From IMG/VR virus record IMGVR_UViG_3300025117_000058, positions 1 to 64,000 of that record: a DNA stretch of 64,000 nt. One strand, given 5' to 3'. A model generated the notes under the pieces. The model did not search any database and was not told the DNA's origin. It was given only the letters and a program-made list of their open reading frames with translations. This DNA is from a virus. Shown piece by piece: positions 51,594 to 59,045 of the stretch (position 1 is the first letter of the stretch; every line of letters begins with the position of its first letter). Both the position numbers and the translations under genes were made by a program.

Positions 51594-52148
51594 ATGGAAA
51601 ACAAAATAATTATGTTCGATTCTGGTGAGGCAGCACAGACAAAAACTATAACGGGATGGGTTTCTGGTAATGGCTTTTTTTACGGTAACGATGAACAATC
51701 TGCAAGGTATATGGGATGCACTCATCAACGTTGCGAATGTGGAATGATTATGAAAAAAGGCTATACTATCTGTGAGTCGTGCCGACACAAAAAAGCATTG
51801 GAAAGATACAGAAATATGCCGTTTAAGGAATGGAACGGTGCTGATTTTTTATATTCAGAAGTAGCGGATAAATATTTTTACGATAGCGAAGAAATCTTTG
51901 ATTATTGTGAAGACGAAGGTATCCTTGTAGAGTCTTTACGATTTATAATTTGCGAACCTGTATATCCAAAAGAAATCAATTTATCTGAGATTTATTCGGA
52001 TTTATTACCGGAATATTCTGGTGGCGAATTGCCACAATATTTAATAGACGCTGAAAATGAATTAAACCAAATAATCAGAGAAGAAAAAGAACTACTGTCT
52101 TGGATACCTGGAAAATATCGGACAGAAGTCGAGGGGAGGAAAGAATGA
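51594..52148 (+). CDS. Zinc-containing phage protein
   Basis: The 184-residue protein has CTHQRCECGMIMKKGYTICE (residues ~40-60), a zinc site, then an acidic region. I recognise the type from phage genomes without a function. Its stop overlaps the next gene (TGATG region). Confidence 0.5.
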   Translation: MENKIIMFDSGEAAQTKTITGWVSGNGFFYGNDEQSARYMGCTHQRCECGMIMKKGYTICESCRHKKALERYRNMPFKEWNGADFLYSEVADKYFYDSEEIFDYCEDEGILVESLRFIICEPVYPKEINLSEIYSDLLPEYSGGELPQYLIDAENELNQIIREEKELLSWIPGKYRTEVEGRKE

Positions 52149-52567
52149 TATTGAAAAAACTAAAAGGAAAAATAATAAAATTGGTGTTGGTTAGCTTTGT
52201 GTGTTTGAATACTTATTCCTCATTTGCTCTTAATGAAATTACAGAAAAAAAATATAAAACATTCGATGGAAAAATATTTAATAAGAAGGAAGACGCCCTG
52301 CTCCATGAAAAAATCCAGAAAAATGTCAACCTGCTTATGGAAATATTCAAAGAGGATACAGAAGCCGCTCTACAGCAAAAAGAACACGATATGGATCACG
52401 ACTTGAGATTGTATCTCTGGGGACACCGTCCTTATCGCTTAGACGAATACGAAGAAGAATATAGAAGTCATTTCTATAAATATTTTAAAATATTAGAAGA
52501 AAAAGGAATCGAAATAGAAATCACACTTAAAAAAGATTATGGAACTTTTACAGTAAATAAAAAATAA
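52145..52567 (+). CDS. Exported helical protein
   Basis: The ~140-residue protein starts at ATG 52145 with a signal peptide (KLVLVSFVCLNTYSSFA) and a charged helical mature part. Co-translated with the preceding gene. No family recognised. Confidence 0.5.
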   Translation: MILKKLKGKIIKLVLVSFVCLNTYSSFALNEITEKKYKTFDGKIFNKKEDALLHEKIQKNVNLLMEIFKEDTEAALQQKEHDMDHDLRLYLWGHRPYRLDEYEEEYRSHFYKYFKILEEKGIEIEITLKKDYGTFTVNKK

Positions 52568-52590
52568 AACAAGAAATAGGAGAAAATAAT

Positions 52591-52812
52591 ATGATATTAA
52601 ACGAATCGAGTATGTTAAAAAACTTTAAAGGCAAAACGAGAAATATGAAAAATATATTGGATTGTCTTTATGTTGATATATGTACTGCAACACCGTCACC
52701 GAATGATATTCACGATCTAGACAAAGAAAAGAAAGAACTGTTAAGACGTATCAAAAAATTAGAAAAAGAAATTTTATCTTTAAAAAATAAAAAAATCAAA
52801 CGAAACATCTAG
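52591..52812 (+). CDS. 73-residue coiled-coil protein
   Basis: The N-terminal part has CLYVDICTATPSPNDIHD, then a coiled coil of Lys/Glu heptads. Start behind AAATAGGAGAAA. Function unknown. Confidence 0.5.
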   Translation: MILNESSMLKNFKGKTRNMKNILDCLYVDICTATPSPNDIHDLDKEKKELLRRIKKLEKEILSLKNKKIKRNI

Positions 52813-52819
52813 TCTAAGT

Positions 52820-52877
52820 GTTTCGTTATCGATCCGCAGCGTTTTTCCCGTATCGCAGGTTTTCTGCGGGTCGAAAC
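52820..52877 (+). terminator. Two-part hairpin before the helicase gene
   Basis: GTTTCG/CGAAAC (outer) and CGATCCGCAG/CTGCGGGTCG (inner, one G-T pair) enclose a pyrimidine-rich loop. It is followed by TTTAGAAATTT. A terminator or attenuator ending the small-gene transcript is likely. Confidence 0.55.
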
Positions 52878-52919
52878 TTTAGAAATTTAATCTAAAAAAA
52901 TTCACTACATCAATATATT

Positions 52920-54857
52920 ATGAATTACGATAATTTTCTTACTCATAAAAAACAGCAAGGATCTAATCATGGATTTGATCCTACATTTGTTCCAGATTAT
53001 TTGTTTGATTTTCAAAAAAGTTTGGTTGAATGGGCTGTAAATAAGGGTCGTAGTGCTATATTTTCTGATTGCGGCACAGGAAAAACTATTATGGAGCTTG
53101 TGTGGGCATACAACATAGTAAGAAAAACAAACAAAAATGTATTGATATTATCACCGCTGGCCGTCTCTTGGCAAACCGCAAAAGAAGCGGAAAAATTTGG
53201 AATTGAATGTAAGGTATCAAGGGATGGTAAAATTAACAGCAAAATAACAATTACCAATTATGAACAATTACATAAGTTTGAACCGTCTGATTTTGTCGGT
53301 ATTGTATGTGATGAGAGTGGAATATTAAAATCGTTTAAAGGTGCATTAAGAAAAGAAATAACAATATTCATGCGTAAAATTGAATATAGATTATTAGCTA
53401 CGGCAACGCCAGCTCCGAACGATTATATTGAATTGGGAACTTCGTCTGAAGCCTTGGGATATCTAGGTGCAATGGATATGTTAAATAAATTTTTCAAAAA
53501 CGATCAACACAATAGCAAAGTGGGAAGATATAGAGGACAAGAAGTTAAATGGAGATTGAAAGGTCATGCAGAATTACCTTTTTGGAGATGGATATGTTCT
53601 TGGGCTAAAGCAATGAGAAAACCATCTGATTTAGGTTTTGACGATAATGGATTTATATTGCCAGAATTAATAATTAATCAAACCGTTGTAAAATCTAATA
53701 GTCTTCCTAAGGGTAAATTATTTTCTATGCCAGCGATAACACTACAAGAACAAAGAGAAGAAAGAAGAAGAACTATAATGGAAAGATGTGAGATGGTCGC
53801 CAGCAAGGTCAATACTGGTAAACAAGCATTGGTTTGGTGTCATTTAAACGACGAAGGAGACTTGTTAGAAGCACTTATTCCTAATTCAATACAAGTAAAA
53901 GGGTCTGATTCTGTTGAATGGAAAGAAGCAGCGGCTGAATGGTTCGTTGGAAATAAATGTATTTGCAATGATAATATGTTTCGTGCTAAACTTTTAGCAT
54001 GGAAAAGAGAAAAACAAATCTTGAATACCATCGCCGATACTATCAAGAACATCGAGAGGAACGATTGCGTCAATCCATCGAATACCAGCGAGCACATAAA
54101 GTTGAACGAAAATCTTATCTATCAGAATATTACAAACACAACAGGGGGAAATGGGTGCGGACACAAAAACAAAAGGATGAAAGAAATAGAAGACGACGAG
54201 AGCGATATGCAAATGACGAAAAATTTCGTCTCGCTAAAATTGAAGAATCAAAAGAAACAAGAAGAAAAAACCCAGACACTCGGCTCAAATATTGTCTTAA
54301 AAAATATGGTGTGTCCATCGAAGAATATCGAAAACTTGAATCAAAAGGATGCGCAATCTGCGGAAGAAAAGAAAACGGAGATATTCGAGGACACCGATTC
54401 CACATCGATCACTCCCACGATACTGGAAAATTCAGAGGGGTACTGTGTACAGGATGCAATCAAGGACTCGGAAAGTTTGGTGACGACCCTAAACGGCTCG
54501 AAAATGCCGCCATGTATCTGCGGGCATAAGACAGGACGTCGCATCCTCATAAGCAAGCCTGTCATGTTTGGGTATGGCTTAAATTTCCAATGCTGTAATT
54601 ATATGGTTTTATTCCCTTCCCATAGTTACGAACAATATTATCAAGTAATCCGCCGGTGTTGGCGTTTCGGACAAAAAAATCCAGTAACAGTAGATATTAT
54701 AACAACGGAAGGGGAGTCAAGAATTATAAACAATTTACAAAGAAAATCTAAACAAGCTGATGAAATGTTTGAAAGATTAATTAGCGAAATGAATCATGTG
54801 TTAAATATAAATCGAATGGAAGAATATTCACAAAAAATAATACTTCCTAATTTCTAA
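52920..54857 (+). CDS. SNF2-type phage helicase with 185-residue in-frame insertion
   Basis: The 645-residue protein is an SF2/SNF2-type ATPase. Walker A is CGTGKT (residues 51-56). A DESG box lies near 130 and the motif III-like ATATPAPND near 160. The C-terminal half has ISKPVMFGYGLNFQ and motif VI RRCWRFGQ. Residues 347-531 are a hydrophilic insertion flanked by CIC twice. Removing it joins WFVGNK-CIC to GHKTGRRILISKP, which restores the expected spacing between helicase motifs. The inserted DNA encodes a separate endonuclease in another frame (53999-54529). Such helicases often sit next to a DNA methyltransferase, as here. Confidence 0.85.
   Translation: MNYDNFLTHKKQQGSNHGFDPTFVPDYLFDFQKSLVEWAVNKGRSAIFSDCGTGKTIMELVWAYNIVRKTNKNVLILSPLAVSWQTAKEAEKFGIECKVSRDGKINSKITITNYEQLHKFEPSDFVGIVCDESGILKSFKGALRKEITIFMRKIEYRLLATATPAPNDYIELGTSSEALGYLGAMDMLNKFFKNDQHNSKVGRYRGQEVKWRLKGHAELPFWRWICSWAKAMRKPSDLGFDDNGFILPELIINQTVVKSNSLPKGKLFSMPAITLQEQREERRRTIMERCEMVASKVNTGKQALVWCHLNDEGDLLEALIPNSIQVKGSDSVEWKEAAAEWFVGNKCICNDNMFRAKLLAWKREKQILNTIADTIKNIERNDCVNPSNTSEHIKLNENLIYQNITNTTGGNGCGHKNKRMKEIEDDESDMQMTKNFVSLKLKNQKKQEEKTQTLGSNIVLKNMVCPSKNIENLNQKDAQSAEEKKTEIFEDTDSTSITPTILENSEGYCVQDAIKDSESLVTTLNGSKMPPCICGHKTGRRILISKPVMFGYGLNFQCCNYMVLFPSHSYEQYYQVIRRCWRFGQKNPVTVDIITTEGESRIINNLQRKSKQADEMFERLISEMNHVLNINRMEEYSQKIILPNF
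53957..54521 (+). mobile_element. Endonuclease gene insertion flanked by 10-bp repeat
   Basis: The repeat ATGTATTTGC (53957-53966) and ATGTATCTGC (54512-54521) bracket the insertion. The period is 555 bp, an exact multiple of three, so the helicase frame is kept. Base composition inside is less AT-rich than outside. The content is almost entirely the nested endonuclease gene, leaving no room for an intron ribozyme. Confidence 0.7.
53999..54529 (+). CDS. EndoVII/HNH-type homing endonuclease nested in the helicase gene
   Basis: The 176-residue protein is read in a frame different from the helicase. The N-terminal 90 residues are a basic Tyr/Arg-rich tract (YHRRYYQEHREER, RNRRRRERY). The C-terminal domain matches the recombination endonuclease VII pattern: CAICGRK, then HIDHSHDTGKFRGVLC and CNQGLGKFGDDP. 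Cys pairs bind zinc, and Asp/His of the IDHSHDTG segment form the active site. The frame is closed three codons before the ATG, so it must start here. No ribosome site is visible, but a GCTAAA/TTTAGC stem precedes the ATG. Confidence 0.82.
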   Translation: MEKRKTNLEYHRRYYQEHREERLRQSIEYQRAHKVERKSYLSEYYKHNRGKWVRTQKQKDERNRRRRERYANDEKFRLAKIEESKETRRKNPDTRLKYCLKKYGVSIEEYRKLESKGCAICGRKENGDIRGHRFHIDHSHDTGKFRGVLCTGCNQGLGKFGDDPKRLENAAMYLRA

Positions 54858-54878
54858 ACAATAGAGGAGGTCAGGATC

Positions 54879-55892
54879 GTGACAGTTAAAGATCAGGTAA
54901 TAACAAGTAATTATGCAATATACAATGGAGATGCTGTAGAAGTATTAAAAACACTACAAAGCAATTCTATTCACTTCTCTGTATACTCTCCTCCGTTTGC
55001 TACTGGCGGTGGCGGGCTTTATACTTATTCAAGCCACGAAAGAGACCTTTCTAATTGCGATAGTTACGAACAATTTTTTGAACATTACGCTTTTGTCGTA
55101 GAAGAAATAGCAAGATTAACATTACCTGGAAGATGTTCTGTCGTGCATTGTATGGATGTGCCGAAAAGTAATTCCGGTAATGATCTATTGAGGGATTTTC
55201 CAGGAGATATAATCAGATTACACGAAAAATATGGATTTGGATATGCGGCAAGACACTGTATTTGGAAAGAACCATTAGGGGTAAGATTGAGAACTATGCA
55301 AAAAAATTTAGCGCACAAAACATTAGTAGAAGATTCTATTGCATGTGGAGTGGCATCTGCTGACTACTTGTTAGTTTTTACGAAAAAAGGCAAGAATCAA
55401 ATACCCATATCTCACCCAACCGGATTAAGTAATTATGCTGGAGAAAAGCCAATACCTTCCAACATATTACAATACAAGGGATATACTGGTAAACAGACAG
55501 AAAATTCATACTCGCATTGGATGTGGCGACAATACGCTTCTTCTATGTGGGACGATATAAGACTTGAAAGAACATTGCCATATAAAGAAGCAAGAGACAG
55601 CGAAGACGAAAAACACGTACATCCATTACAATTAGATGTTATTGAAAGATGCGTTGTTTTAAGGTCTAATATAGACGAAGTCGTGTTGACACCATTTATG
55701 GGAGTTGGAAGCGAATGTTATGGTGCTATTATTAATGGCAGAAAAGCCATAGGAATCGAATTGAAACCATCTTATTACAGACAAGCCGTTAAAAATATGG
55801 AATTAGCTAAAAACGAAAAAACATTACAGAAAAAACTATTCAACGAAAACAATACCTTACTATCATTGATGAGTGAGGAAAAATCGGAATAA
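54879..55892 (+). CDS. DNA methyltransferase (N4/N6, beta class)
   Basis: The 337-residue protein starts at GTG behind GGAGGTC. Catalytic motif IV is SPPF at residues 37-40, and the AdoMet-binding motif I FMGVGS comes near residue 275. The IV-before-I order defines the beta class of amino-methyltransferases. It modifies adenine-N6 or cytosine-N4 in an unknown target and probably protects phage DNA from host restriction. It lies between two helicases with 2-21 bp gaps. No restriction nuclease is next to it. Confidence 0.88.
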   Translation: MTVKDQVITSNYAIYNGDAVEVLKTLQSNSIHFSVYSPPFATGGGGLYTYSSHERDLSNCDSYEQFFEHYAFVVEEIARLTLPGRCSVVHCMDVPKSNSGNDLLRDFPGDIIRLHEKYGFGYAARHCIWKEPLGVRLRTMQKNLAHKTLVEDSIACGVASADYLLVFTKKGKNQIPISHPTGLSNYAGEKPIPSNILQYKGYTGKQTENSYSHWMWRQYASSMWDDIRLERTLPYKEARDSEDEKHVHPLQLDVIERCVVLRSNIDEVVLTPFMGVGSECYGAIINGRKAIGIELKPSYYRQAVKNMELAKNEKTLQKKLFNENNTLLSLMSEEKSE

Positions 55893-55894
55893 TA

Positions 55895-58600
55895 ATGGAA
55901 ATCTCGAACAAAATCCCATTTTCTAATCCTAAATTTAAAAAAGGATTAACACCGCTACAGCACAAAACCGTCACGGACGTGCTATCAAGCAGAAAAACAA
56001 TAACGATGATTAATGCTCCCACCGGATTCGGGAAGACTCCGACAGCTATGACCCTTGCCCACCATATAAACTACCCGAACCAATCTCTATATCTTTGTAG
56101 TTCTAAAATTTTACAAGATCAATTGGCTGGGGATTTTACAGAAGCGTATCAATTAAAAGGGCGGGGAAATTATCCGTGCACACTTCTACCCACCTATAAT
56201 GCAGACCGATGCTTCCAACAATGCGATGAATATAAGTGCGGTGAAATTTCATGCGCTTATGAAGATGCGAAAAAAGAAGCCTTATCATCAACTTTTACCA
56301 TTCTCAACATGCACTATTACGAGACCGAAACGAATTTTGTCGGTAGATTTTCAAAGCGTAAAACCGTAATAATTGACGAGGCAGATGTATTAGAAGATAT
56401 TTTGATAGATTTTATCGCACTAGACGTCCATCCGAAAACATTGGAAAAATTCAAGCTGGATCAGCCCAAATATGTGACTAAGTTAGATTCATGGAAGGAA
56501 TGGGCGGATAAAACATTAAAAATATTAGAAGAAAAAGTTAAAAAGCTAAGAGCCGCCGAAGACCACTTGGATAGAGAATCAAAATTAGAACTAAGTAAAT
56601 TGTTGAGAATGTGTCTGAAATTAAATATGCTAAAAAACGATATAACGGAAGAGTGGATATTCGACCATGCCGAAAAATTTCGCTTTCAACCTCTCTGGCT
56701 AGACACAAAACTTACCCAACAATATTTACTCAAACATGCGGAAAGATTCGTTATGATGTCTGCGACCATGCTCCCGAAAGTTATAGCGTGTAAATTATTG
56801 GGATTAGATATTAACGATGTGGATTATCACGAGATAGATTCACCTATACCCGTAGCGAATCGTCCCATTGTTTATAAGCCAATTAAAAAGCTAAAATACG
56901 GTGAATCAGAAGAAGATGTTTATAATGAAATTAAAAGATTGATAGAAGGGTACAAAGGAATTAAAGGGATTATTCATGCTGTGAGCTATACCCGTGCAAA
57001 GGCAATAGCAGGACTGGACAAGCGTTGCATCACTCATAATACCTACGATAAAAACGAAAAAATAAAACAATTCATAGACTCAAAAGATGGGATATTGGTA
57101 AGCCCATCGTGTGATCGTGGACTTGACCTGCACGGCGATCTAGCAAGATTCTGTATAATTCCAAAAGTTCCGTTCCCGAACACAACGGACAAGGTGGTCT
57201 CCAAGCGTTTGTACAGCTCTCCCTTTGGTAGGGTATGGTACAGGGCTGTAACGGCGCAAACCATTGTTCAGATGGCGGGGCGTACTACTCGATGTTTTAG
57301 CACAGACACAGAAATCTTAACGATACATGGATGGAAAAAATACAACGAAGTAAATATGCACGATAAAACTTATTGTATTGATCAGAAATCTTTTAACAAT
57401 AAAACTAAACGTCCAGTTATGGAGGGTTCTTCGATATTAGTAGAAGGAGAAATAGAGGATGTCTATACATCAGATAAAGAAGAAAAAGTTATTAATATTA
57501 AAAATCAAAACATTGATGCTTTAGTTACTCAAGACCACGACATGATTGTTCAAATGAGAAAACAGAAAACTTATAGGGGGAAGTATAAAAAACCTTATGG
57601 AGTTTATGATTGGAAATACTGTCATCGTACAAATAGTCATGGATTAGAAAAAATAAAAGCATCTAAATTACCAGACAGATTTAAAATACCACTAGCAGGA
57701 AAAATTATACGCAAAAACAAATCTCGTGCTAAAAAAGAATGGTTCTGGCTGATAGGTTTCATAATAGGGGATGGACATATTCATAAAAACAAAAACGTCG
57801 TAACAATACATCAATCGGAAACCAACATAGACTTAATAGAAAAAATCAGAAAAGTTCTTGGTATACTTAAAATAGAATATTCAGAATACAGACGACAAGT
57901 AAAAGGAACAAAAATAAATTTAAACGATAAGGAGTATTCAAGAAAAGAAGATATGATAAATTTTCAAATAACGGGTAAGTCTTCTTCGATGATTAGGGAT
58001 ATGTTTAATAATGGCAAAAGAAGAAGGTATTCAAAAACAGTAACATACGTACAAAGAACTCACTTTTCTTTTAGTAAAAAAATAGGGGGAAAGCATAAAA
58101 TAGATGGGTGGAAAGAAGTGGAAAAAATCATACCAAGATGGTGTCTGGAGAAGGGGTCGAAATCCCAACTTATTAAATTAATTCATGGTTTGGTTGACAG
58201 CGACGGAAGCTGGAAAAAAACTAATGGTAAATATAATAAAAACGTTGGAGGTTTTTACAACAAAAATAAAATCATAATAGATGCTTTTCAGGAGTTGTGC
58301 GTATTGACAGGATATAGAAGTTTGATTCGTAACAGAAGGAATCAATACGAAGTTTCCTTTTGTTGTCCCTCCATGATTGACTGTACGAAAAATAATGATG
58401 TAAAAGACGGAGGGATGTCTAAGGTGTGGTGTGTTAAAACAAATCATGGAAATGTTATAATGAGGAGAAATGGTAAACCTTTTTTGTGTGGAAACAGTGC
58501 CAGCGACTTTTCCACTGTTCATATACTGGACGCTGCTTTTGATTCGGTCGTAGAATTTGTCCCGAAATGGTTTCGAGATGCAATCAAGGTTGAATTTTAG
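55895..58600 (+). CDS. XPD/DinG-like helicase with intein at motif VI
   Basis: The 901-residue precursor (500 without intein) has Walker A APTGFGKT near residue 42 and DEAD in VIIDEADVLED. A Cys-rich segment (KGRGNYPC then four or more Cys within ~30 residues) resembles the Fe-S domain of XPD/DinG helicases. SPSCDRGLDLHGD fits motif V. Motif VI QMAGRTTR is interrupted directly after its last Arg by an intein (residues 467-867); the C-extein starts SASDFSTVH. It probably unwinds 5'-3' during replication or repair. It ends with a normal TAG. Confidence 0.88.
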   Translation: MEISNKIPFSNPKFKKGLTPLQHKTVTDVLSSRKTITMINAPTGFGKTPTAMTLAHHINYPNQSLYLCSSKILQDQLAGDFTEAYQLKGRGNYPCTLLPTYNADRCFQQCDEYKCGEISCAYEDAKKEALSSTFTILNMHYYETETNFVGRFSKRKTVIIDEADVLEDILIDFIALDVHPKTLEKFKLDQPKYVTKLDSWKEWADKTLKILEEKVKKLRAAEDHLDRESKLELSKLLRMCLKLNMLKNDITEEWIFDHAEKFRFQPLWLDTKLTQQYLLKHAERFVMMSATMLPKVIACKLLGLDINDVDYHEIDSPIPVANRPIVYKPIKKLKYGESEEDVYNEIKRLIEGYKGIKGIIHAVSYTRAKAIAGLDKRCITHNTYDKNEKIKQFIDSKDGILVSPSCDRGLDLHGDLARFCIIPKVPFPNTTDKVVSKRLYSSPFGRVWYRAVTAQTIVQMAGRTTRCFSTDTEILTIHGWKKYNEVNMHDKTYCIDQKSFNNKTKRPVMEGSSILVEGEIEDVYTSDKEEKVINIKNQNIDALVTQDHDMIVQMRKQKTYRGKYKKPYGVYDWKYCHRTNSHGLEKIKASKLPDRFKIPLAGKIIRKNKSRAKKEWFWLIGFIIGDGHIHKNKNVVTIHQSETNIDLIEKIRKVLGILKIEYSEYRRQVKGTKINLNDKEYSRKEDMINFQITGKSSSMIRDMFNNGKRRRYSKTVTYVQRTHFSFSKKIGGKHKIDGWKEVEKIIPRWCLEKGSKSQLIKLIHGLVDSDGSWKKTNGKYNKNVGGFYNKNKIIIDAFQELCVLTGYRSLIRNRRNQYEVSFCCPSMIDCTKNNDVKDGGMSKVWCVKTNHGNVIMRRNGKPFLCGNSASDFSTVHILDAAFDSVVEFVPKWFRDAIKVEF
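57293..58495 (+). mobile_element. Helicase intein with LAGLIDADG homing domain
   Basis: It starts CFSTDTEILTIHGWK and ends FLCGN before the +1 Ser, with TQDHDMIV as the block B-type His region. Two LAGLIDADG helices are visible: LIGFIIGDG and IHGLVDSDG. Length is 401 residues. Splice-site residues (Cys1, final Asn, +1 Ser) are intact. It sits inside helicase motif VI, next to the arginine finger, a favoured place because it cannot be deleted imprecisely. Confidence 0.9.
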
Positions 58601-58617
58601 AAAAAAAGGATAAGGAT

Positions 58618-58809
58618 ATGTGCAATAACAAATGTCCAAATTGTGGAAGCAATATGATAGAAAAACCACCAGTAATGATTTATTCAGCCAATCCACAACA
58701 ATACGATTCTGTAATGTGGTGTGGTTGTGGCTATTCTGAAAATCGAGGCAGGGTTTTTAGCAAGGCAGAAGATGAACAATTATATGATTTGTGGAAAAAA
58801 GCAAATTAA
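58618..58809 (+). CDS. 63-residue zinc-ribbon protein
   Basis: CPNCGS at the start and WCGCGY in the centre form a zinc ribbon; the rest is helical. Start behind AAAAAAGGATAAGG. Function unknown. Confidence 0.55.
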   Translation: MCNNKCPNCGSNMIEKPPVMIYSANPQQYDSVMWCGCGYSENRGRVFSKAEDEQLYDLWKKAN

Positions 58810-58817
58810 CAAAAAAC

Positions 58818-59045
58818 ATGGATAGCCTTGAGATAAAAAGAGGGGAGTGGTTGTTTCTTGATGCTGTTTATAACATAAATTCTCATTATATCGAGGGCGG
58901 CTGGGACAAAATTATGGAGAAATTTCCAGAAGAAATCAAATGCTTGGATGAAAGATTAAATCAGTATTGGAATCAGAAAGTTATTACAGAATGGAAGAAT
59001 GGAATTAAAGAATATTTGATCGAAGTTAATTACTGGAAGGAGTAG
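58818..59045 (+). CDS. 75-residue protein, 3' end duplicated downstream of the RNA ligase
   Basis: Starts at ATG 58818 (MDSLEIKRGEWLFLDAVY). It ends KEYLIEVNYWKE. The last 39 bp (59007-59045) recur after the RNA ligase gene at 59910-59948, encoding KEYLVEVDYWRE with mostly synonymous changes. Function unknown. Confidence 0.5.
   Translation: MDSLEIKRGEWLFLDAVYNINSHYIEGGWDKIMEKFPEEIKCLDERLNQYWNQKVITEWKNGIKEYLIEVNYWKE
59007..59045 (+). repeat. Direct repeat left of RNA ligase gene
   Basis: 39 bp starting AAAGAATATTT, matching 59910-59948 with about ten differences, mostly transitions. Together the two copies bracket the ligase gene. Confidence 0.6.

Follow-up and report, generated by a model that had tools for sequence, protein, structure and literature searches.

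Group I introns and inteins with homing open reading frames (ORFs) are spliced out, and free-standing phage endonuclease VII is the enzyme of the T4 gp49 type. Out-of-frame HNH insertions that leave the frame of the host gene open and carry no splicing signature have been described by Arsenault, Gosselin and Gogarten (2025; PMC11855218). That article presents two worked examples in phage methylase genes, the ShiLan domain (gp65, a DNA methylase) and Pacc40 gp60, leaves the translation of the hidden genes as a question and suggests leaderless initiation; its abstract mentions several further hidden insertions in phages and prokaryotes, the list of which is kept in a repository. The locus treated here lies in the first 64,000 nucleotides (the window) of IMG/VR virus record IMGVR_UViG_3300025117_000058, a viral record of 78,468 bases. 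Most probably, a mobile endonuclease VII (EndoVII) gene has invaded a phage SNF2-type helicase gene at this locus, and the DNA is read in two frames at once. The original prediction had regarded a dual-coded in-frame insertion as a new arrangement; the arrangement itself is not new, because the article of 2025 had already reported HNH genes inserted out of frame into genes whose own frame stays open. The following features define the locus.

52920–54857, plus strand: host gene, coding for an SNF2-type (SF2) phage helicase of 645 amino acids, frame open across the insert (PHROG DNA helicase, E 2e-42)

53999–54529, plus strand: +2-frame gene for an endonuclease VII (HNH/His-Me finger) of 176 amino acids, with Pfam and PHROG matches

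53958–54539, plus strand: inserted element, as set by uninserted relatives (FVGNK and RILISKP flanks), ends good to a few codons

The nuclease matches Pfam Endonuclease_7 (PF02945; E 3e-19, 69.1 bits against a curated cut-off of 23.6) and is assigned to endonuclease VII by the PHROG search as well. The four cysteines C118, C121, C150 and C153 and the residues D137, H138, H140 and N154, whose roles we take to be those of their counterparts in T4 endonuclease VII, are all found, and the protein is the sole endonuclease VII of the 78,468-base record. Its gene lies entirely within the helicase gene, each helicase codon being made up of nuclease codon positions 2 and 3 and the next position 1. The nested nuclease and the open helicase frame are confirmed as observations, with coordinates and frames as originally given and no stop in the helicase frame across the insert. 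Since 7,935 bp are identical between the window and a second viral contig (L001, a 37 kb record), which possibly represents the same population, the arrangement is not an error of one assembly.

Among 731 phage records matching the nuclease, the top two are the Gordonia phages Malisha (gp71) and Squiddly (gp64). Both proteins are annotated as DNA helicase only, though the nuclease match lies inside, in the +2 frame and with the helicase frame open. Their insertion is located about 45–50 residues upstream of the insertion site in the window, and Gordonia phage Holliday, with 84% DNA identity to the Squiddly gene over the aligning 60%, has an empty site. At the window's own site, EndoVII is nested in the same phase in a contig from a deltaproteobacterial metagenome-assembled genome (MAG; L149) and in the viral contigs L185 and L228; the latter were found by a DNA motif scan, share helicase, site and phase with the window, match PF02945 above the cut-off and are alike in the stretches compared; in these contigs the helicase continues into methylase-like sequence. 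The helicases of the three same-site carriers (window, L149 and L185) are 43–47% identical over residues 1–345, and the region downstream of the insert is intact in all of them (43–51% identical). A free-standing homologue, L145, is 47% identical to the window nuclease. Two profile searches gave 5 and 3 loci, among which L145 turned out to be free-standing and L149 nested, with L150 used as a free control; L146, L151 and L083 (the contig of L147) were examined as translations only. The helicase gene of L149 additionally contains an intein with Hint-type matches between LDE and SSIL (L149:504–3209). This intein in turn houses the gene of a DUF559-type nuclease (PF04480, E 9e-12; L149:1159–1791), which is out of frame, in the +1 phase, and would be a second dual-coded nuclease within one gene.

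Alignment of uninserted helicases across the site, which had been proposed as a check, yields a uniform picture: 78 of the 78 relatives spanning it lack the insert and have no residues between the helix and the motif V strand. The count is based on the 79 other helicase loci of the first scan, excluding L075, in which the site is not covered, and is unthinned for near-duplicates. The uninserted L003 is 64, 79 and 67% identical to the window helicase over residues 1–101, 101–201 and 201–347, respectively. Because the relatives run through FxxGxxRVL uninterrupted, the insert is nearer to 53958–54539 (about 582 bp or 194 codons, of which the nuclease ORF covers 531 bp) than to the 555-bp direct repeat formerly taken as its boundary. 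The two copies, ATGTATTTGC and ATGTATCTGC, do lie 555 bp apart in the window, but a junction repeat as good or better is obtained in 38% of 300 shuffles (P 0.38), and the CIC in the downstream copy is encoded by the final codons of the nuclease itself, ATG TAT CTG C. A 555-bp target duplication was discarded, junction repeats being at chance level in 4/4 elements tested (P 0.38–0.71).

The predicted helicase structure matches the Ino80, Isw1 and Snf2h motors across both lobes, with a VIA Z of 29.3 to Ino80 and a root-mean-square deviation of 3.3 over 369 residues (model range 20–624). In this model, an SNF2 core with two RecA lobes folds around a poorly defined insert, in which helices are predicted at 351–408 and 419–454 (block means 34–78) and nothing confident at 452–537 (predicted local distance difference test below 50). 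The tolerated loop of the original prediction has its counterpart in the model, where the insert appears with low to middling confidence as a loop off the intact SNF2 core.

The evidence for selection on the helicase frame comes mainly from the codons of the nuclease. The helicase phase contains no stop in 4/4 nested lineages (window; Squiddly/Malisha; L149; L185/L228) versus 2–13 stops in 14/14 free-standing EndoVII genes (p 3e-4). In this phase, only those Ile, Leu, Val or Met codons that end in TA or TG can give rise to a host-frame stop. Pooled over genes, xTA accounts for 5/83 Ile, Leu and Val codons in the nested group and for 116/334 in the free group (p 2.6e-8). For the window, 2/21 such codons are xTA, against an A-ending share of 79/107 among the other codons (p 3.8e-8), so that the deficit is not an effect of guanine-plus-cytosine (GC) content. 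L185 gives 1/17 versus 86/119 (p 1.6e-7), avoidance is also found in L149 (p 0.002) and Squiddly (p 0.025), and the AT-rich free homologue L145 gives 11/21 versus 72/108 (p 0.22). From this avoidance of stops and of xTA, as compared with the 14 free-standing controls, the helicase frame seems to be kept open by selection, as had been proposed; the filter may have acted at insertion, later, or both.

The estimate that had accompanied this proposal, (61/64)^185 or about 1 in 10,000, derives from the wrong model. If the nuclease protein is held fixed, the result depends on the codon scheme: a stop-free helicase phase is obtained in 0/20,000 draws with phage codon usage (mean 8.0 stops) and with P 6e-4 for uniform codons. 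Several observations weigh against the reading given here. The nuclease's own codon usage gives P 0.11 and synonymous permutation 0.064 for a stop-free phase, and these values are why the argument relies on the avoidance of codons and not on the open frame by itself. The free control L150 (GC 0.28) is also poor in xTA relative to other A-ending codons (p 7e-4). PF02945 is present in only 2/48 other helicase-bearing viral records searched (51 loci less L070, L105 and L124). The same P of 0.06–0.11, together with the hydrophilic nuclease that makes this phase stop-poor, would suit an improbable alternative, in which the insertion has destroyed the helicase, the frame of the latter is open only by chance and the copy is decaying. 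Such decay is hard to reconcile with the absence of stops from four lineages when 0/14 free genes are stop-free, with the xTA avoidance in nested genes, and with the intact part after the insert in the three same-site carriers.

What the helicase frame encodes within the insert appears to be tolerated rather than used, to judge from comparisons between carriers. Helicase-frame identity inside the insert has z of 0.04 to 2.15 in the six nested pairs, all of them positive, which is a further point to be set against mere tolerance; pairs with free genes range from -1.98 to 2.05. Amino-acid constraint on the helicase-frame insert is at most weak beyond what the nuclease dictates, and since the amino acids are not clearly conserved beyond that, the insert is unlike an ordinary domain. 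Conserved helicase-frame residues of this kind, or stops in closely related insertions, had been named beforehand as signs to the contrary; neither was seen, three further lineages being stop-free. Cysteine pairs occur at both junctions:

53958–53966, plus strand: CIC at the upstream junction, helicase frame, half of a possible Cys4 clasp

54513–54521, plus strand: CIC at the downstream junction, helicase frame, within the nuclease's final codons

The corresponding pairs are CLC/CMC in L149 and CVC/CTC in L185. Pacc40, with another site and another nuclease, has CLC/CPC, and its empty relative Nivrat has none there. Squiddly is without junction pairs; CIC is absent from the 78 uninserted relatives, and CxC occurs in the helicase phase of 0/12 free genes examined, a count that leaves out ctYwJ313 (no sequence) and L150. 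The pairs might form a zinc clasp at the foot of the loop, but this stays speculation, because cysteine codons arise easily in this phase, wherever C or T comes after ATG or xTG. An ancestral CIC in a native CxCGH helicase subfamily was considered and rejected, as two pattern scans returned the own contig and a chance match (L152, an unrelated ORF of 1,534 amino acids); these scans used fixed spacings and pertain to native forms with those spacings. The junction pairs in the three same-site carriers and Pacc40 and the positive z of the six nested pairs are what could be said for a functional domain encoded in the helicase frame, with the nuclease frame secondary. This is scarcely credible, given a canonical EndoVII nuclease with free-standing homologues, nested pairs of which none clearly exceeds the pairs with free genes, and an insert missing from 78/78 relatives; a helicase-frame peptide accompanied by a broken nuclease was seen in none of the five carrier sequences.

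All six insertions examined (the four EndoVII lineages, Pacc40 and ShiLan) are in the +2 phase. In the window, the other phase contains 12 stops (synonymous expectation 12.9) versus none (1.9) for the +2 phase. The latter is stop-poor because a host stop needs T at nuclease position 2, which means a hydrophobic residue, while K, R, E and Y abound in these nucleases. To judge by the code table and the stop counts, the shared phase is probably not accidental; it is not universal, as is seen from the +1 phase of the DUF559-type ORF in L149.

Several features are candidate marks of mobility. Squiddly and Malisha differ at 121 positions of the helicase gene, 120 of which lie outside nt 801–1600, the stretch holding the insert. 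The comparison of Pacc40 with Nivrat is weaker: most of the gene ahead of the insertion has 0–2 differences per 60 columns and the part just before it 7/60 and 3/24, but values of 3–7 per 60 are also found further downstream. In the window, the 3' side is marked as follows.

54530–54570, plus strand: GC-rich 3' flank, by eye like the GC-rich MAG copy in L149, possible co-conversion tract

The 100-base windows over 54350–54599 have a GC content of 0.46–0.53 and the surrounding ones 0.25–0.41, so that the rise spans the end of the nuclease gene and about 40 bp of helicase beyond. Mosaic tract and GC-rich flank would be the marks expected of homing with co-conversion, and the distribution is patchy, with carriers in distant lineages and empty sites in relatives.

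Most homing genes in coding regions use a splicing device or split the gene, and for this insert, too, removal at the RNA or protein level by an intron, intein or ribosome bypass has been considered, in which case the helicase would never have a loop. A group I or II intron was rejected, as Rfam gave no match up to E 1 over 52000–59000 of the window and the RNA fold energy (z -0.78) is no better than that of 20 shuffles. An intein was rejected since the window helicase has no Hint splicing domain (Pfam, E up to 0.01). The insert, moreover, is nearly all nuclease, and an intron has no reason for avoiding host-frame stops, all of which makes removal very unlikely.

The hidden gene of the window begins at a conserved signal:

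53979–54001, plus strand: conserved start region TTTCGTGCTAAACT-N6-ATG, candidate internal promoter for a leaderless mRNA

Within it, TGCTAAACT (53984–53992) resembles the extended -10 consensus of promoters and lies six bases from the ATG, the A of which would be near +1. The sequence just upstream of the nuclease ATG is TTTCGTGCTAAACTTTTAGC in the window, TTTGGTGCTAAACTGGCAAC in Squiddly and Malisha, TTTAGTGGTAAACTATGCCT before the second ATG of L149, TTTAGTGCTAAACTGGCATC in L185 and TGATAAAATATTAAG in the free homologue L145. TGnTAAA[AC]T-N6-ATG is thus present in 5/5 of these close relatives, L185 not being an independent case as it was found via the motif. The L145 form, TGATAAAAT-N6-ATG, agrees in 7 of 8 positions with the extended -10, and 11/11 other free EndoVII genes score 2–5 of 8 at the motif offset, in a table from which ctYwJ313 and L150 are left out. 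At least 6 is reached by 33/1,726 ORFs in the fetched DNA, a background that is inflated by loci fetched for holding the motif. The host codons within the motif have identical third positions in AT-rich and GC-rich genes alike. When TTTNGTGSTAAACT-N6-ATG was used as the sole pattern on the 2.9 million viral_contigs, 79 stretches were retrieved, and an EndoVII gene follows in 3/79, namely in the twin contig of the window, in L185 and in L228, each time nested and in the same phase; ORFs other than those of L185 and L228 were judged by their first 70 residues, not by profile search. An earlier, stricter scan had returned the own contig and a chance match in another gene (L143) only.

From this conservation, TGnTAAACT-N6-ATG is perhaps a promoter for a leaderless mRNA. 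Some results fit such a promoter poorly: TGCTAAACT is unlisted by the promoter scan, which gave no -35 partner and found 4 sites where 2.2 are expected; in L149, the motif fits the second ATG (2474) only, the first (2468) scoring 2 of 8; and Pacc40 and ShiLan have no TGnTAnnnT-N5-8-start signal in the stretch searched. A Shine-Dalgarno sequence was not seen at the nested starts, which loses some of its force as 8/12 free starts are also without one. The competing possibility, with a substantial chance somewhat short of even, is that the nuclease has no promoter of its own and that its translation starts on the helicase mRNA, through internal initiation or re-initiation, and that the motif is a binding site for the ribosome, a regulator or the nuclease, or is simply inherited. 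The location of the element inside a presumably transcribed gene and the lack of a listed -35 agree with it, as does the ability of homing enzymes such as I-TevI to bind their own operators. The missing Shine-Dalgarno sequence at nested starts, the identical third positions in AT-rich and GC-rich phages and the 7-of-8 extended -10 match before the free-standing L145 gene favour the promoter instead. The hidden start codon of the window can also pair in a hairpin (53979–54004) with the arms TTTCGTGCTAAA and TTTAGCATGGAA, which are 83% complementary; this hairpin could regulate initiation.

Summarizing, invasion by a mobile endonuclease VII gene would lead to the following scenario. Ribosomes on the helicase mRNA would pass through the insert, giving a 645-amino acid helicase whose second RecA lobe bears, just before motif V, a hydrophilic loop about 194 residues long; that this full-length helicase is made and works is suggested by the open frame, the conserved downstream part and the stop avoidance, which are themselves observed. 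The nuclease would arise separately, by translation from the ATG at 53999 on what is most likely a short transcript, starting at or next to this ATG and driven, as its conservation suggests, by the extended -10-like TGCTAAACT six bases upstream. It would cut empty helicase alleles, repair of which would copy the element and its flanks, in keeping with the patchy distribution, the shared site and the mosaic tract. The phase would have been stop-poor from the outset, remaining stops being avoided via synonymous choice. A more far-reaching version, namely a dual-coded homing family with its own extended -10 in host codons, a leaderless mRNA, tuned codons, an inert loop and a junction CxC zinc clasp that aids folding, is conceivable but rather doubtful as a whole.

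The surroundings of the locus contain further features of interest.

54879–55892, plus strand: DNA methyltransferase gene (N6_N4_Mtase) adjoining the helicase gene; also adjacent in Squiddly and Malisha, and by eye fused to the helicase in L185

The next helicase gene of the window (55895–58600; DEAD, Helicase_C_2) has a LAGLIDADG domain and, by eye, the look of an intein carrier, with no Hint match listed; two neighbouring helicase genes would thus both have been invaded. In L002 (931–2751), a second partial copy of the helicase C-terminus and methylase start is found with another HNH-like gene beside it, which points either to a rearrangement of the neighbourhood or to an artefact of assembly. 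Helicase/methylase regions with broken frames, similar to one another by eye, are carried by plasmids recorded for Escherichia fergusonii and Lysinibacillus pakistanensis (L131 and L132); their likeness across such different hosts and the many frameshifts suggest sequencing error or contamination. A non-nested alternative is seen in L122/L157 and also in L123, where a free-standing EndoVII gene (L157:1201–1746) is located exactly between helicase and methylase genes of the window's family, and a further HNH-like gene follows the methylase.

In the openly licensed literature searched, no report of a nested insertion of the EndoVII type was found; the repository list of PMC11855218 is outside that search and may hold one, and the words Gordonia, Squiddly, Malisha, endonuclease VII and EndoVII had no match in the portion of the article considered. 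With the present locus, hidden homing genes come to include a further nuclease family and a helicase as host, and a possible reason is offered for the sharing of one phase by six of six insertions. The start motif, which led to two further carrier contigs, provides a way to find genes hidden from annotation, and Squiddly and Malisha, as isolated Gordonia phages, make the mechanism accessible to experiment.

Compared with known systems, inteins and group I introns with homing ORFs likewise place a nuclease in a conserved gene, though nothing found here indicates splicing. Free-standing phage endonuclease VII belongs to the same nuclease family (PF02945) but is not nested and has 2–13 alternate-phase stops in 14/14 cases. 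Pacc40 gp60 shares with the window the +2 phase, the absence of host stops and CxC at both junctions, and its insertion is, by eye, in the helicase part of a fused helicase/methylase; it differs in its site (between RPSDI and GYDLPPL), in the lack of the start motif and in its hidden protein, for which Pfam gave no match up to E 0.1. To judge by eye and by the organisms matched, Pacc40 gp60 (L172:3102–7127) probably belongs to the window's helicase family, of which Nivrat and others have an empty site. The ShiLan domain is also an in-frame insertion without host-frame stops, almost the whole of which encodes an endonuclease in the other frame; it shows no signature of an intron or intein, is patchily distributed and has the same +2 phase (phase checked here). 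It is, however, an HNH protein with zinc fingers, not endonuclease VII, in a methylase, not a helicase, of mycobacteriophages, and has no start motif in the stretch searched. The window protein matches endonuclease VII families only; the claim made here is that the two are the same kind of element, and it does not extend to their belonging to one element family. What is new here is the EndoVII class, the recurrence at one site in three distant helicases, the codon-level evidence and the conserved start motif.

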